From positions 1-21,206 of the IMG/VR virus record IMGVR_UViG_3300046001_001498: DNA of 21,206 bases. One strand, given 5' to 3'. The notes below the pieces were generated by a model that saw only the letters and a program-made list of their open reading frames with translations, had not been told where the DNA came from and made no database searches. Source of the DNA: a virus. Made by a program: the position numbers and the translations under genes. This document shows, one piece after another, positions 4,910 to 18,300 of the stretch; position 1 is the first letter of the stretch; every line of letters begins with the position of its first letter.

Positions 4910-5695
4910 CTATCCTCCGACACAGAGAGAACACAATGCGAGATTCTTGCCGTGTCTGCATTTGGGTGGTGGCGCTGCCTGGCTCTTGAGTTTCTCCATC
5001 TCAGCCAGATACTGCTCAGTCGCACTAAGGTCCTTCGCTCGGCGCTCGCTACCGAATTCCTGTATCTGGTTATGCGTAGCTGCATCTTCCCAGGCGTCCT
5101 CGTTCAAAAAGGTTGCTGGAAGCTTGATAAATCCACGCCTAACTCTGTCTGAGCTTCTATAGGCAATTACACCAGCGATGATGTCCTCAAACGATGCTCT
5201 TGATAGGGCTGACCTAAAAGCCTTGAAGGCTGGTTTCTTTCCTTCCTTGCGTGGATACTCTTTCCAGAATTCATCAAACAATTTTTCCGACTGTATTCTC
5301 TGGTTATTCTTAATCTCTTGTTCTTCTATTGAATTATGTTCTTCTTTATGCCCTGTTTCACCGTGACGGGGTTTTGCCGTAACGGGGTTTTGGAACGGGT
5401 CTTGAGTTTTGAAGTCATAGTCAGCGAAAGTCCCATCCTCGTTATGGCCCTGTTCTGATGATCTAACGAGATAGCCAAATTTCTCAAGTTCTAAAATGGC
5501 GCTTTTTATGGTGTCTTGTCCAGTTCCATTCACCTTTGCCAATGACCGAATGCTCATTCGCCAGCCTGGTGTATGACTCATTATCTGAGCCAGTAAACCA
5601 ATAGCCTTCAAACTCAAGCGTGTATCCCGAACCCAGTCGTTAGGTATCTGGGTAAAGTGGTCGTCAAATGAATGGTGTCCCCTGATTAGTGGCAT
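4910..5695 (-). CDS. Phage replication initiator (winged-helix, O/DnaD-like)
   Basis: 261 residues. Residues 15-90 look like a winged helix: PNDWVRDTRLSLKAIGLLAQ, then SIRSLAKVNGTGQDTIKSAI and LEKFGYL. A low-complexity linker follows (about 95-135). Then FDEFWKEYPRKEGKKPAFKAF (about 140-160) starts the C-terminal domain common in phage replication and helicase-loader proteins. The extreme C-terminus CRHGKNLALCSLC is a probable small zinc site. The protein would bind the origin and load replication machinery. The gene contains two tandem iteron-like repeats and an AT-rich block in its linker, as in the lambda O gene. AGGAGG lies just before ATG 5695, overlapping the upstream stop. Confidence 0.78.
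   Translation of the reverse strand: MPLIRGHHSFDDHFTQIPNDWVRDTRLSLKAIGLLAQIMSHTPGWRMSIRSLAKVNGTGQDTIKSAILELEKFGYLVRSSEQGHNEDGTFADYDFKTQDPFQNPVTAKPRHGETGHKEEHNSIEEQEIKNNQRIQSEKLFDEFWKEYPRKEGKKPAFKAFRSALSRASFEDIIAGVIAYRSSDRVRRGFIKLPATFLNEDAWEDAATHNQIQEFGSERRAKDLSATEQYLAEMEKLKSQAAPPPKCRHGKNLALCSLCVGG
5281..5400. other. Putative replication origin inside the initiator gene
   Basis: Two 16-base tandem repeats (5361-5392), with a degenerate third copy just beyond, lie next to a 70-base AT-rich block (5281-5350, 20 G or C by count) in the linker of the initiator gene. Iterons beside an AT-rich unwinding region within the initiator gene is the layout of lambdoid origins. The assignment is inference from layout; no function is shown. 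Confidence 0.45.
5361..5392. repeat. Two tandem 16-bp iteron-like repeats
   Basis: CCGTGACGGGGTTTTG at 5361-5376 and CCGTAACGGGGTTTTG at 5377-5392 differ by one base. Each contains the interrupted palindrome CCGT-N-ACGG, a dyad suited to a dimeric binding protein. A partial third copy (AACGGGTCTTG) follows at 5394. Confidence 0.85.
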
Positions 5696-7901: not shown

Positions 7902-7930
7902 CTTTATGCGATGGCTCGGACATTTATCAA
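7902..7930 (-). promoter_or_regulatory. Predicted early-operon promoter
   Basis: On the minus strand TTGATA (7925-7930) is followed after 17 bases by ATAAAG (7902-7907), a fair sigma-70-type match. Transcription would begin near 7895, leaving a 20-base leader holding the ribosome binding site of the exonuclease gene. A second -10-like TATACT lies at 7934-7939 on the same strand but lacks a good -35. Confidence 0.5.
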
Positions 7931-7938
7931 GCGAGTAT

Positions 7939-8166
7939 ATGAAATTGTTATTTTCTATACAGGCTGTAGGGGGAGTAGAGTGCGAAAAGCACCCTGCGCT
8001 GTGGTATCCAGAGGATGAGCCAGATGCTACGGTGCGGCATCAGATGAGCGTAATTGCCAAGGGTATTTGCTATGACTGCCCAATCAAGAAACAGTGCTTT
8101 GACTATGCGCTACGCACCAATCAGCGACACGGTATCTGGGGCGGAACTAGCCCCGAAGAACGCTGA
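7939..8166 (+). CDS. WhiB-family transcriptional regulator 1
   Basis: 75 residues with the four-cysteine iron-sulfur pattern: Cys15 (GVECEKHPALWYP), then AKGICYDCPIKKQC giving C-x2-C-x5-C, and the G-[VI]-W-G-G turn RHGIWGGTSPEER. Wbl proteins bind a 4Fe-4S cluster and contact the sigma-A region 4 of RNA polymerase to redirect transcription. It is minimal: no basic DNA-binding tail after GTSPEER. ATG at 7939 puts the first Cys at a normal distance; an in-frame ATG at 7906 would overlap the divergent promoter. No strong ribosome binding site or promoter of its own is seen, so start confidence is limited. Opposite strand to flanking operons. Confidence 0.88.
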   Translation: MKLLFSIQAVGGVECEKHPALWYPEDEPDATVRHQMSVIAKGICYDCPIKKQCFDYALRTNQRHGIWGGTSPEER

Positions 8167-8202: not shown

Positions 8203-8556
8203 ATGATTTATCATCCCGAATACATAAAGCTTGCTGAGGCGATGGAACAAGCGCCGACAATCCCACCCTGCACCAATACAGACCCAGAGCTGTTCTTTCC
8301 AGATCAAGATGCCAATGTGAATCTTTACATGGTAGCTAAGCAGCTATGCGCTCAGTGTCCAGTTATAAAGCAGTGCTTGACTTACGCGTTGAAAACCAAT
8401 GAGGAGTATGGCGTGTGGGGCGGGCTAACGGCTTATGAGAGACGGAAGCTCAAAAAGGGCGGGAAAATCACAGTGGCTAAAGCTACTCGTGCAGGACGAA
8501 CATACGACTGGAGACGGGGAGATGTTCAAACCGCGATTGTTTACAAGGTGGCCTAA
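8203..8556 (+). CDS. WhiB-family transcriptional regulator 2
   Basis: 117 residues. The iron-sulfur cysteines are in PPCTNTDPELFFP and AKQLCAQCPVIKQC (C-x2-C-x5-C), followed by the turn YGVWGGLTAYERRKLKKGGK. Unlike the first WhiB, it continues with about 40 basic residues (KATRAGRTYDWRRGD), a likely DNA-contacting tail. ATG at 8203 is fixed by the promoter six bases upstream. Phage Wbl proteins such as WhiBTM4 of mycobacteriophage TM4 interfere with host WhiB function and cell division; whether this one does so is inference. Similar core to the first WhiB suggests an old tandem duplication with divergence. Confidence 0.93.
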   Translation: MIYHPEYIKLAEAMEQAPTIPPCTNTDPELFFPDQDANVNLYMVAKQLCAQCPVIKQCLTYALKTNEEYGVWGGLTAYERRKLKKGGKITVAKATRAGRTYDWRRGDVQTAIVYKVA

Positions 8557-8609
8557 CAACAGCGCATGGCCGTTGTCGCACCTATAGATGACATACCTAC
8601 AAAAAGTAT

Positions 8610-11660: not shown

Positions 11661-13490
11661 CTAAATCGGGTATCTAATGATTACAACACCAGCGCCACCA
11701 TTACCACCAGGATAAGTTGCAGCTCCAGAATTGTAGCTAAACCCGCCGCCACCGCCGCCAGTCTTGTTTAGACCATCAGCTACGGCATTACTACTTCCGC
11801 CCCCGCCTCCATCGGTTCTTGTTGTAATAAAGTTTCCACCGCCAGAGGCGTTGCAACCAGAAGCAGCACCGCCAGAATAATACCCATTTGAATCACCAGT
11901 ATTGGTAGCTGTCGCCCAAGTCGAATAGGTATTTGTTCCGCCTCCACCAGCGCGAGAATTTTGATTCGCTGAAGATCCTGTTCCCGCGGCGTTGAAACCT
12001 CCACCACCTCCACCTGGGAAGTTTCCAGAATTGTTGGTTCCACCATTATTTCCTTGACCTGATGTTCCAGCTCCTCCTATACCGCCATTATCATTACCTG
12101 CACCACCACCTGAGCCTCCTGCGCGTCCGTAATGAGCATTACCTCCAACATTAGAGCATCCTCCGCCACCACCACCATCGGCAGCGGTCAAGCTAATACC
12201 AGATCCAGTTACATTGGAATCGGTGCCATCAGATCCCTGAACAAAGCTATCCCCACCTTTAGCTCCACCTGCACCAACAGTAACGGTATATGCACTTGTT
12301 CCAAAACTAACTGATGAGTTGTAAACCAAACCACCAGCTCCACCACCACCACCAGTGTTTTTACCACCACCACCGCCGCCACCAGCTACAGTTAGAACTT
12401 CACAGCTCAAAGAGACAGAAGGTGTGAATGTTCCAGATACTGTAAATGTGTGATAGGTATAAGTTCCATTTTGTGTTATTGTTCCGCCTGTTGCATAAAC
12501 ACCAGATAGGAAACTAATGTTATCTGATCCTGCTGTAAAGGTAGTAACTGAATAACCTCCAGAGGTAGAAGTTGTTGAAGTAAGCCCCGCTCCTACAACA
12601 ATGGAATAAACATCTGGGTATTTTAAAATTACAATTCCAGAACCTCCAGCAGAAGCGGCCTTGCTGCTACCACCATTACCAGCACCACCACCACCACCAC
12701 CACCAGTATTTGCGGTTCCTGCAACAGAAGCAACAGCACCAGAAGCACCTCGACCACCACCGCCCGCGCCACCCGCGCCTGAAGCTGGGGAGCCAGAAGG
12801 CCCATCAAAATCTGAGCCACCGCCGCCGCCACCAGCGCGAGTAGTAGAAGTTCCTGTTATGGATGAAGATACTCCAGTTCCCCCATCTCCACCTCCATTT
12901 CCACCGACATTTGTAGCTTCACCAGCGGCGGCCGCACCACCTCCACCACCGCTGTTATACGCTGACTGATTAGCCGCACCTCCTGCATAACCTTGATTAG
13001 CAGTTCCAGCACCACCACCACCATTAAAAAACTCACCAGCACCACCACCAGAACCACCACTTGATCCATCGGTTACAACTGGTCCGCCCTTACCTCCACC
13101 AGTTGAGGTAATAGTTGAAAATACTGAATTAGAACCATTTGCATTGGCAGCTCCTCCAGCACCAACTGTTACGGTGTAAGAAGTCCCGACTACGCCAGTA
13201 AAAGCAGATTCAGCACTAGAGCCTCCTCCAGAGTTTTCGCCCGTAACATTACAACGATAGCCTCCAGCTCCGCCACCACCACCTGCGCGAGCGCCACCAC
13301 TTCCACCACCTGCTCCACCAGCTATAACCAGATAACTAATTGAAAGCGGCGCGGCAGATTCGTAAAACTTTTTCCAAGAACCGCTTATCTTTGAATAGCC
13401 TTCGGCCACTTCTTTCCAAGATCCGCCAACGCGAGCGTATACGGCATCTATCTCATACCATGTAGCGCTTACTCTGCCGTGTGCAGTCAC
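11661..13490 (-). CDS. Large glycine-rich tail adhesin with two modules
   Basis: 609 residues. Residues 1-45 hold two short repeats with GSWK (VGGSWKEVAEGY, ISGSWKKFYES). Module 1 (about 51-292) runs from ISYLVIAGGAGGG through YTVTVGAGG to GSGIVILKYPD; a Ser/Thr-rich linker follows (about 293-335); module 2 (about 336-609) runs from GGTITQNGTYTYHTFTVSG through LTVAGGGGGGG and YTVTVGAGG to GVVIIRYPI. Gly runs are broken by Asn, Ser and Ala, as in polyglycine-II tip domains. Likely the main host-binding fibre. The DNA is highly repetitive (CCACCA-type codon runs on the plus strand), which favours recombination between modules. Confidence 0.78.
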   Translation of the reverse strand: MTAHGRVSATWYEIDAVYARVGGSWKEVAEGYSKISGSWKKFYESAAPLSISYLVIAGGAGGGSGGARAGGGGGAGGYRCNVTGENSGGGSSAESAFTGVVGTSYTVTVGAGGAANANGSNSVFSTITSTGGGKGGPVVTDGSSGGSGGGAGEFFNGGGGAGTANQGYAGGAANQSAYNSGGGGGAAAAGEATNVGGNGGGDGGTGVSSSITGTSTTRAGGGGGGSDFDGPSGSPASGAGGAGGGGRGASGAVASVAGTANTGGGGGGGAGNGGSSKAASAGGSGIVILKYPDVYSIVVGAGLTSTTSTSGGYSVTTFTAGSDNISFLSGVYATGGTITQNGTYTYHTFTVSGTFTPSVSLSCEVLTVAGGGGGGGKNTGGGGGAGGLVYNSSVSFGTSAYTVTVGAGGAKGGDSFVQGSDGTDSNVTGSGISLTAADGGGGGGCSNVGGNAHYGRAGGSGGGAGNDNGGIGGAGTSGQGNNGGTNNSGNFPGGGGGGFNAAGTGSSANQNSRAGGGGTNTYSTWATATNTGDSNGYYSGGAASGCNASGGGNFITTRTDGGGGGSSNAVADGLNKTGGGGGGFSYNSGAATYPGGNGGAGVVIIRYPI

Positions 13491-15355: not shown

Positions 15356-18300
15356 TAGCTTCCTGACCTAGCAAATACCGTTCCAGATGAGCGTTCGTAT
15401 TTTAGGATTTCATTTACTATCTGCTGACCAATCTGAGTGCCATCTGCGCCTAGACCAGCATTGACAACCAACTCAAAGTAGTTCTGAACTGCACCGCTAC
15501 CTAACGCGCCAGCCCTAGGAATCAGCTCAGCCGATGATAGACCCGAAACAATGCCACCTAGGTCAAAGCGCATACCTGCAAGCAAGTCAGTCTTGATTGC
15601 CTCAAAGACATTGCGCTTGAACAAGATACCGATGCGAGCAGCTTCGCCCTTGACAACATCCATTGCGGCAGTTGCGCCATCAATCAGCTTTTGAATCTGC
15701 ATGACTGAAGCAATGTCAGCAGTCTGCGCCTTGGTTACAGCGTTTTCAGCTTCCTTCAGAACTTGCTCAGCAGCTCTAATAGGAATGTCAATTGCAATGT
15801 TTAGGCTATTCTTGAAAGTCTCGCTAAAGGTCTTAGCCATTTCAATGGCTTGGTCATAAAGCTGCTGTTGTTCTGACCGAATTCCGTCTATTAGACCGAA
15901 TGTCATGTCCCGACCTGCGTCATACATTGTCTGACCAACATCCAAGCCCAGTTCAGCACCCAGCTTGTTTATTTCACTAAACAGGCTGTTGATTTCACCA
16001 ATAGTCTCAGAGCCACCTTCAACCAAGGCTTGAGCAGTCTCACCACCAGCCTCAACACCAGCCTGGACTAGATCCGAGAACAGCATTGGGTCTAGACCCA
16101 TGTCCCGTAGCTTGACCAGGTTGGCTGCGAAGTCGCGAGCCTTCTGGGTCATTGTCTTGAATTCTTCGACTAGGGCTGCTGACTTGCTGGTCGTTTGCTC
16201 AATGGTCTTTTCGTAAGTCCTGGTGACTGTTACACCGAATTCCTTCAGTGTGCTTCCAAGCTTGATAACGCCCTCGGAAACCTCAGTGATTGTGACCTTT
16301 TCGGTCTCGTTCTTTAGCCTGCTGAACAAGCTTGTGAGCTTCAATGCACTGGTTAGAGCGCCTTGGTATTCCTTGATTAGCGATTCAGATAGGGCTGCCC
16401 TATTAGCTAGATCATCACGGCGCTTGGCAATTTCTTGCAGTGCCTTTGATTCAGTATTGACCCATGCGCTTAGACTGCGGAAGCTGGCATCTGTAATAAG
16501 TCCACTGCGGACGGCAGATGTTAGTTCTGACTGAATTCCAGAAATTGTGGAAACAATTGCTTCTTCAAATCGTCCTAGCTCGCGCTCAAAATCTGGCAGT
16601 ATCCGAATGTTTGTTAGGTTGTCTAATGACCATCGTCTAAAGTCCTCAGCCCTAGCTTTGACATCTGCAAGGGCGTCTGCGGCTTCTCTTGCTGCACTCT
16701 TTAGAGACTTGACATTTGATTCAATTGCTTCTATGGCTGCATCTCTAGCTGCTTTATTTGCATCTGCAAATTCTTTAGCTGCTTCAGCGGCTTCCTTTAT
16801 GCCATCAGCAGTTTTGTTGAACTGTTCTTGTAATTTTCGTAAACCAGAGGGGCCTGTAGCAATAATTCGCTTATAGGTTTCTTCCCATTTATCTGCCCCA
16901 AGAATTGCCTGAATAAGTCCTTCGCTGGCCTTCATAGACCTGAGCTTGCTTGCAGCAGCCTGCTTTGCTACTTCCTCATTCAATCCCTCAAAGAAATTCT
17001 TGCCTGTTTTAGATCCAGTAGTTTTTGGATCTGTAGCCGCAAATAGCTCATTCAGTCGTTTTTCAAGTTCGGCCTTGGTATTACTCAAACCAACTGCTGC
17101 GCTAAGAGACAAAACCTTTGTGATGTCTATAGCAGCTAATTTTGCATAGGTTTGAATTACTTCAAAAATTTCTTTCCAGTTTGGTCTGGTCAGAGCTTCT
17201 TCAATAAAGGCAGCACTTAGGCCCAAGTCCTCCATGCTTTGCTTAGCATTGCTCTTTTCAACTGCATCGTCAATGTCCTTGAATACGCCTGCTAAACCAC
17301 CAAGCTTGCCATCTGCGTTGACTGCACCAGTCGCAATTCCTCTTAGTGAATCTTCTAATTTTCGACCTGATTGAGACGCCTCTAATTGAGCAGCGCTCAT
17401 TCTTTGAACTGAATTTAGAGCAAAGGTAGTGTCGTCATAGAACTTACCCATTGCCGTTTTGTTTTTATAGGTAAATCTTTCAAGAGCTTGCTCGCCCTTG
17501 GCCAGATCTAAGCCTAATAAAGTTCCTAGCAAGCCCGCTTCGGCAAATTTCTCTAACGAACCAAAATCAATTTTGTCTAGTTGTAAAAGTGAAGCAATAA
17601 AATCTAATGCACCTTGAGTTGCTCTAGTAAAACTTGATGTAGAGGCATCAAGGGCCAATACTAAAAGATTTCCTATTTTGTTTGTAACATCTAAAACTGG
17701 AACAATTACTGCCCCAAGTATGTTTGTGAACATACTAAGTAAATCAATAACTTGTTGTAGCGGGGCTATCAATAGGAAGAATGATTCGCCTAGAACCTTG
17801 ATAAATGGAGCCAGGGACTCTATAGCAGCACCAAGAGAGTTCGCAATGTCAACGACCTGTGGCCCAAATTCTTGAGCCAAATCAGCAAAGATGTTGTTTA
17901 CTTCTGCCAGTGGTTTCTGTAGCGGAGTTCCAAAAGCAACTTGTAAATTGCCAACAATGGCATTTAGTCGCTGTTGTGATGCGTAAAGAGTGTCAGAAGC
18001 TCTAGTGAAAGCACCAACAGCATCATCGGCTCTTTCAAACAGCATTGTCAGACGAGCTTGGGCTTGAGCCAGGTTTAGTGCCTCACCCTCCAGGTCGCCC
18101 ATTCCTTCAGCAGCAAGACGAGCATTTACTTCGCTTTGCTTCATAGCGACACCGAACTTTTCAATCGGGTCGTATTCACCACGGAATAGGGCTGTGATAG
18201 CTAGAAGGGCGGTCTGTAGGTCATAGCCATAGGTAGTCGCCAAGTCTTGTGCAAGTGTTACAAGTCTTTCGGTCTGATCTGCTGATTGCTGAGTTGTAAA

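Follow-up and report, generated by a model that had tools for sequence, protein, structure and literature searches.

In the window, the whole stretch of 21,206 nucleotides analysed here (virus record IMGVR_UViG_3300046001_001498), positions 5281-5401 very probably form a phage theta-type replication origin located inside the gene encoding its own initiator (4910-5695, minus strand). This reading is drawn from sequence because the gene belongs to an initiator family, its internal repeats are out of frame and, in relatives, such repeats exceed a synonymous null and are inherited together with the N-terminal domain. The features of an origin embedded in an initiator gene were found at the sequence level: multiple iterons within the coding sequence and an adjacent AT-rich element.

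Iterons and AT-rich block in the window

The linker-coding part of the initiator gene contains a tandem 16-bp repeat, CCGTRACGGGGTTTTG, in two copies followed by a degenerate third. The full copies, CCGTGACGGGGTTTTG (5361-5376, dyad at 5361-5369) and CCGTAACGGGGTTTTG (5377-5392, dyad at 5377-5385), differ at one base; each contains the dyad CCGT-N-ACGG and is a proposed binding site for an initiator dimer. The third copy or half site, GGAACGGGTC (5392-5401, sense GACCCGTTCC), is found as the same word in the close relatives L005, L006, L059 and L131 of the same iteron class. On the sense strand of the gene, which is the minus strand, the linker DNA reads GACCCGTTCC AAAACCCCGTTACGGC AAAACCCCGTCACGGT GAAACAGGGCATAAAGAAGAACATAATTCAATAGAAGAACAAGAGATTAAGAATAACC. 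This arrangement had been described in the initial annotation, as had a neighbouring 70-base block with 20 G or C; both were confirmed, the repeats at 5361-5401 and the block, to the base, at 5281-5350.

The dyad word CCGTNACGG is present in the 21,206-base record at 5361-5369 and 5377-5385 only, against 0.07 occurrences expected, and no shuffle contained two. Allowing up to 3 mismatches, the 16-mer had 2 matches in the record (0.26 expected), a number reached by 4 of 100 shuffles. The tandem score of the initiator gene was reached in 4/1000 and 1/300 protein-preserving codon shuffles, and three other genes of the window reached their own score in 19-223 of 300. On its own, the iteron repeat of the window is a modest signal (p about 0.001-0.004). 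Its period of 16 bp does not fit the reading frame, and translation of the same word gives PVT in one copy and RHG in the other, so a repeated peptide cannot be its source. Every other one of the stronger short-period repeats in the window is in frame, with a period divisible by three, and several of these lie in Gly-rich proteins. Short in-frame tandem repeats (9, 12, 15, 24 and 30 bp) were also seen at 12330-13060, within a 609-aa gene (11661-13490, PHROG 2295). An RNA hairpin at the dyad was rejected by reasoning, since a 4+1+4 arrangement leaves a one-base loop, which is impossible for RNA and fits a protein dimer.

The AT-rich block (5281-5350) is the proposed unwinding element, and purines account for 73% of the sense (minus) strand in its lowest-GC 60-mer. 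Equally AT-rich 70-mers were found at about 2422, 2781, 8580-8601 and 17539-17563 of the window; given these four other stretches, the block by itself is not special, and its AT richness is partly forced by the Lys/Asn/Glu-rich linker that it encodes. Boxes of the type TGTTCTTCTTTA, missed by the initial annotation, are repeated inside the block on the minus strand, with the sense sequences TAAAGAAGAACA (box 1, 5337-5348), AATAGAAGAACAA (box 2, 5318-5330) and TTAAGAATAA (box 3, 5304-5313). A GC-skew shift, proposed earlier as a check, was not seen at the site; across 1-8 kb the skew declines evenly, the pattern that a single coding strand would give.

The initiator and its gene neighbourhood

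The 261-aa initiator is made of a winged helix (HTH_36), a disordered linker and a C-terminal helical domain of the FDEFWKEYPRK type. The N-terminal winged-helix DNA-binding domain (aa 1-98) is encoded at 5402-5695 on the minus strand, as indicated by PF13730, AlphaFold2 and VIA-align; the conserved C-terminal domain (aa 138-205), a proposed recruiter of the host replication machinery, is encoded at 5081-5284 on the same strand, as indicated by AlphaFold2 and PHROG 9327/9474. The match to PF13730 (E 5.6e-9) scored 36.1 bits against a curated Pfam cut-off of 25. PHROG 270, 'replication initiation protein', matched aa 10-222 (E 9e-35), a full-length match including the C-terminal part, and this part was also recognised by PHROG 9327 ('primosomal protein') and PHROG 9474 ('replication initiation protein'). 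In the AlphaFold2 model, the winged helix spans residues ~18-100 and residues 106-121 have a pLDDT below 50; the disordered linker covers residues ~100-138 and is followed by the helical domain, which opens with FDEFWKEYPRK. VIA-align placed the N-terminal domain among winged-helix folds including the plasmid initiator structures 4pt7, 4pql and 5kbj (Z 8.3-9.2), a level also reached by many unrelated winged helices. Foldseek searches with the initiator returned generic winged helices at best (E > 0.008), with TubR among the weak matches. A search of solved structures with the initiator profile found no relative, and a search of NCBIfam found no match. HTH_36 was the sole Pfam match of the initiator, and the RepA_N N-terminal domain (PF06970) was not detected.

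The origin had been called lambda-O-like in the initial annotation. This description holds for the layout and probably for the mechanism, but not for membership by sequence. O-like families matched the initiator weakly (PHROG 678, 5e-6; PHROG 345, 5e-5), far below PHROG 270, and a P-type helicase loader gene, which in the lambda O family stands beside the initiator gene, was not found among the window proteins scanned. Assignment to the lambda O protein family by sequence was rejected because the best family is PHROG 270/PF13730. The module had also been described as self-contained. This overstates the case: the scanned window proteins include no identified helicase, helicase loader or primase, so host factors would have to be recruited.

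The neighbours of the initiator in the window encode a YqaJ/RecE-like exonuclease, a RusA resolvase, an HNH nuclease, a protein with a weak SSB-like match and two WhiB-like proteins. The two WhiB-like genes are adjacent (7906-8166 and 8203-8556, plus strand) and divergent from the replication cassette; their presence supports an actinobacterial host, as judged from gene content. Among isolates, the initiator gene adjoins DnaB-like helicase or primase/helicase genes in VanLee, PL-1, Tank and Pureglobe5. VanLee is a GC-rich Gordonia phage, and the linker of its gp45 (L189), encoded next to the DnaB-like helicase, carries CCACATGTGG palindromes and a TAAAGAAGAC box.

These data bear on the possibility that the winged-helix protein serves chiefly to regulate transcription, of itself or its operon, that the repeats are operators within its own gene and that replication starts elsewhere. 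The fold is a general one, and MarR/TFE-type regulators lead the structure matches. However, the family models name replication initiators, the exonuclease, RusA, HNH and SSB-like neighbours make up a replication/recombination cassette, the isolates place the gene next to helicase or primase/helicase genes, and the sites lie in mid-gene with an AT-rich block behind them that an operator would not need. We therefore consider the operator reading improbable; autoregulation may exist in addition to origin function.

Iteron classes, AT boxes and proposed mechanism

Two scans of viral contigs and one genome scan yielded 151 distinct homologous genes, 70 of which, non-redundant and close, were compared. 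In most relatives, the winged-helix code gives way directly to tandem dyad repeats at aa about 98-115, with a unit of 15-16 bp or, in one group, 21 bp. Behind them the 60-mer of lowest GC begins, at aa 105-125 in 65 of the 70. Relatives with the same initiator but without repeats and AT-rich block had been named beforehand as evidence against an origin; instead, most were found to have the repeats and nearly all to have the block behind. The same layout was seen in the cultured phages Cinna, Matzah, MO526, Nicole72, phiPsal1 and PL-1. Relatives of the N-terminal domain are encoded on Streptomyces plasmids (H103-H112), where they are annotated as hypothetical protein.

The repeats fall into at least four classes. 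Class A (CCGTNACGG, 16-bp period) comprises the window, L005, L006, L010, L059 and L131; class B (CCGNNNNCGG, 15 bp) comprises L007, L015-L018, L027, L062 and others; class C (CCTACGTTGG / CCTACGCAGG, 15 bp) comprises L020-L048 and L107; and class D (AGGGGTGACA, 21 bp) comprises L050-L052, in which a different O-like N-terminal domain is joined to the same kind of C-terminal domain. The N-terminal domain of L050 matched the O-like PHROG 8540 (E 6e-22). The combination of this kind of C-terminal domain with a different O-like winged helix and 21-bp AGGGGTGACA repeats was observed in L050-L052, L049, L121, L126, L128 and L130, and in this group the exchange extends to the initiator-iteron module as a whole. 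Counted on both strands, class A words were found 18 times within the gene and 0 times outside over 38 kb, class C words 20 and 0 times (73 kb), class D words 30 times and once (58 kb), and class B words, defined by a looser pattern, 38 and 10 times (77 kb). The recognition-helix region also differs by class, reading GTGxDTIK in A, QEGKDAIR in most of B and GVGRDAIR in C. In the genus Mementomorivirus, Matzah (L316) has class B iterons and Cinna (L317) class C iterons, and their N-terminal domains differ, making them a useful laboratory pair; MO526 is L318.

Synonymous resampling indicated that the repeat DNA is kept beyond protein constraint in related initiators, a check put forward in the initial annotation. 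The tandem score of the iteron region, summed over 47 relatives, was 564, as compared to 305 (sd 14, max 344) under the synonymous null. The period was 15 in 32 of these relatives and 16 in 9, and 23 of the 47 reached p <= 0.05 singly. In control tests of the same kind, lambda O (3/300) and Tuc2009 rep (0/300), two genes already known to harbour their origin, were flagged and lambda P (300/300) was not.

Iteron distance followed the N-terminal domain (partial Mantel r 0.73 given the C-terminal domain) and not the C-terminal domain (0.19 given the N-terminal domain), values to be read with the caveat that the sequences are related, not independent, and that proximity linkage contributes, as the iterons lie beside the N-domain code. 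The AT-rich block depended equally on both domains (0.32 and 0.33). Natural chimeras gave a similar picture. L005 and L016 have C-terminal domains that are 97% identical and N-terminal domains that are 61% identical, and carry class A and class B iterons, respectively; their DNA identity is 0.5-0.7 up to nt 420 and 0.88-0.98 thereafter, a jump at nt 420-421 that places the crossover just behind the AT-rich block. The window and L007, which differ in iteron class, are 97% alike over the first 60 nt and 88-97% over the last 90 nt, with identities of 0.4-0.6 through the winged helix and iterons. When the window is compared with L005, the iterons (DNA identity 0.82-0.83) rank among the best-matching parts of the gene and exceed the stretches that flank them on either side. 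The Mantel tests and the chimeras, both comparative evidence, locate iteron specificity in the N-terminal domain, and the comparisons show an apparent exchange of repeats and binding domain as one unit among relatives.

A reading in which the DNA has no function of its own would explain the linker as fast-evolving and disordered, its short peptide repeats as products of slippage and its AT-rich codons as a consequence of Lys/Asn richness. The linkers are indeed low-confidence in the AlphaFold2 model, and in many relatives the 15-bp repeats are in frame and show up as peptide repeats (PTQDNPTQDN, PTTENPTTEN). This explanation is very unlikely in view of the out-of-frame 16-bp period of the window's class, the resampling result, the confinement of the iteron word to the gene and the recurrence of these types of dyad in cultured, unrelated phages of high GC. 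The idea that the repeats mark a locus for partition (a centromere) or incompatibility instead of an origin, suggested by winged-helix partition proteins such as TubR (the weak Foldseek match) that bind direct repeats, can be practically dismissed, since no partition ATPase or TubZ was found among the scanned window proteins and the AT-rich block and initiator family suit an origin better.

Returning to the embedded origin, boxes of the type TAAGAAYA / TAAAGAAGAACA recur behind the iterons, about every 14-18 bp overall and about every 15-19 bp in the window. In the AT-rich blocks of relatives, TAAGAAYA was observed 73 times, as compared to 28 (max 39) expected when synonymous codons were drawn from the AT blocks themselves, and never on the other strand. 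The boxes are not tied to one iteron class and are also present in GC-rich Microbacterium and Arthrobacter phages, as TAAAGAAGAACA in Nicole72, TAAGAACACAAG in Cinna and Matzah and TAAAGAAGACCA in Wheelbite. They lie mostly in one frame, and a peptide role may also exist. We tentatively propose that the AT-rich block, besides melting readily, carries a conserved, strand-specific array of boxes that initiators with very dissimilar iterons have in common and that persists in Microbacterium phages of 66-69% GC; it could serve as a single-strand loading site read by the initiator C-terminal domain or a host factor, with the iterons providing interchangeable specificity.

In the mechanism that we envisage, initiator dimers would contact the dyad iterons with their N-terminal winged helix, whose code lies immediately upstream on the sense strand. 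Binding would bend or wrap the segment and open the adjacent purine-asymmetric, AT-rich block; the C-terminal domain would bring in the host helicase and replisome, and replication would start at 5281-5401. This locates a candidate origin to within about 100 bp in a group of uncultivated actinobacterial phages, as well as in cultured relatives without an annotated origin. The four or more iteron classes with matching N-terminal domains, including chimeras with a common C-terminal domain, constitute a data set on how winged-helix residues relate to iteron choice, and compact initiator-origin cassettes (about 0.5 kb) could become vectors for actinobacteria.

Comparison with known embedded origins

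The lambda origin lies in gene O and shares with the window an N-terminal DNA-binding domain and mid-gene dyad iterons (PMC5043065, PMC7466680, PMC6022878). In lambda, O dimers bound to the iterons open the AT tract next to them when the DNA is supercoiled (PMC5043065, PMC7466680); by analogy, the window initiator is expected to bind as dimers and melt its block. In both systems the AT tract lies sense 3' of the iterons with a purine bias on its sense strand. The lambda tract is strand-asymmetric in purines (PMC5043065), and purines make up a fraction of 0.68 of the lowest-GC 60-mer in lambda O and of 0.73 in the window initiator gene, with gene means of 0.57 in both. The two differ in that lambda has four iterons about 20-24 bp apart and the window two at 16 bp, with another iteron sequence; a P-like loader is absent beside the window initiator, and the window protein is only weakly O-like. 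O still works in trans after in-frame AT-tract deletions (PMC6022878) and the central part of pSK41 Rep is dispensable as protein (PMC5703833), so the linkers in these systems matter as DNA.

A direct likeness to the lambda AT tract was noted for the class A' relatives L042, L069 and L070, which share ACACAAARRACACTATTACNAAAGAA with it (score 19, 0/300 dinucleotide shuffles); a 29-bp near match, ACACAAAGAACACTATTACTAAAGAACAA / ACACAAAAGACACTATTACAAAAGAAAAA, was seen between class A' linkers and lambda O (L194, about 620-650). This likeness was dropped as evidence because the peptide is also shared (DTK-TITKE) and the comparison had been selected post hoc; a scan of viral contigs with CACTATTACNAAAGAA, which returned mostly unrelated genes beginning MTTITKE, also counts against it. 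The AT-rich block of the window itself gave no score against the lambda tract, with 66 of 100 resampled blocks doing as well.

SPP1 gene 38 and Tuc2009 rep2009 are, as in the window, Gram-positive phage initiator genes with direct repeats and an AT-rich element inside. The origin in SPP1 gene 38 is oriL (PMC6316719), and Tuc2009 rep is annotated 'contains origin of replication'. Unlike the window, both have Firmicute hosts and other repeat sequences, and SPP1 also encodes its own loader and helicase and carries a second origin, oriR. An origin within repA has been proposed for mycobacteriophage RepA, with no repeats identified (PMC7157519). Among cultured actinobacteriophage relatives, the RepO linker of Pontimonas phage phiPsal1 has 15-bp dyad repeats (TTCCACTGTGG x4), and Microbacterium phages have 15-bp linker dyads of the CCTACGCAGG type (Cinna, x3) or the CCGACGACGG type (Matzah, Nicole72), with a TAAGAAC/TAAAGAAGA box right behind the repeats in Cinna, Matzah, MO526 and Nicole72; their C-terminal domain is another one than in the window. 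The Microbacterium proteins are listed only as HTH protein or hypothetical protein, and the feature tables examined contain no annotated origin.

Among experimental precedents, pPR9 comes closest. In pPR9 and pSK41 rep, which are of the RepA_N type, the origin lies, as in the window, centrally in the gene, in the linker between a DNA-binding N-terminal domain and a recruiting C-terminal domain (PMC5703833). An HTH_36 (pfam13730) N-terminal domain with its own origin has replaced that of pSK41 in pPR9, giving a functional mini-replicon compatible with pSK41 (PMC5703833); compared by published description, this is the same module swap as seen here. Unlike the phage, pPR9 and pSK41 are plasmids, with a DnaD-like/pSK41-type C-terminal domain in place of the FDEFWKEYPRK domain. 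Collectively, the embedded-origin layout is already known from lambda O, SPP1 gp38, Tuc2009 Rep and pSK41/pPR9, and the window is a well-supported further case.
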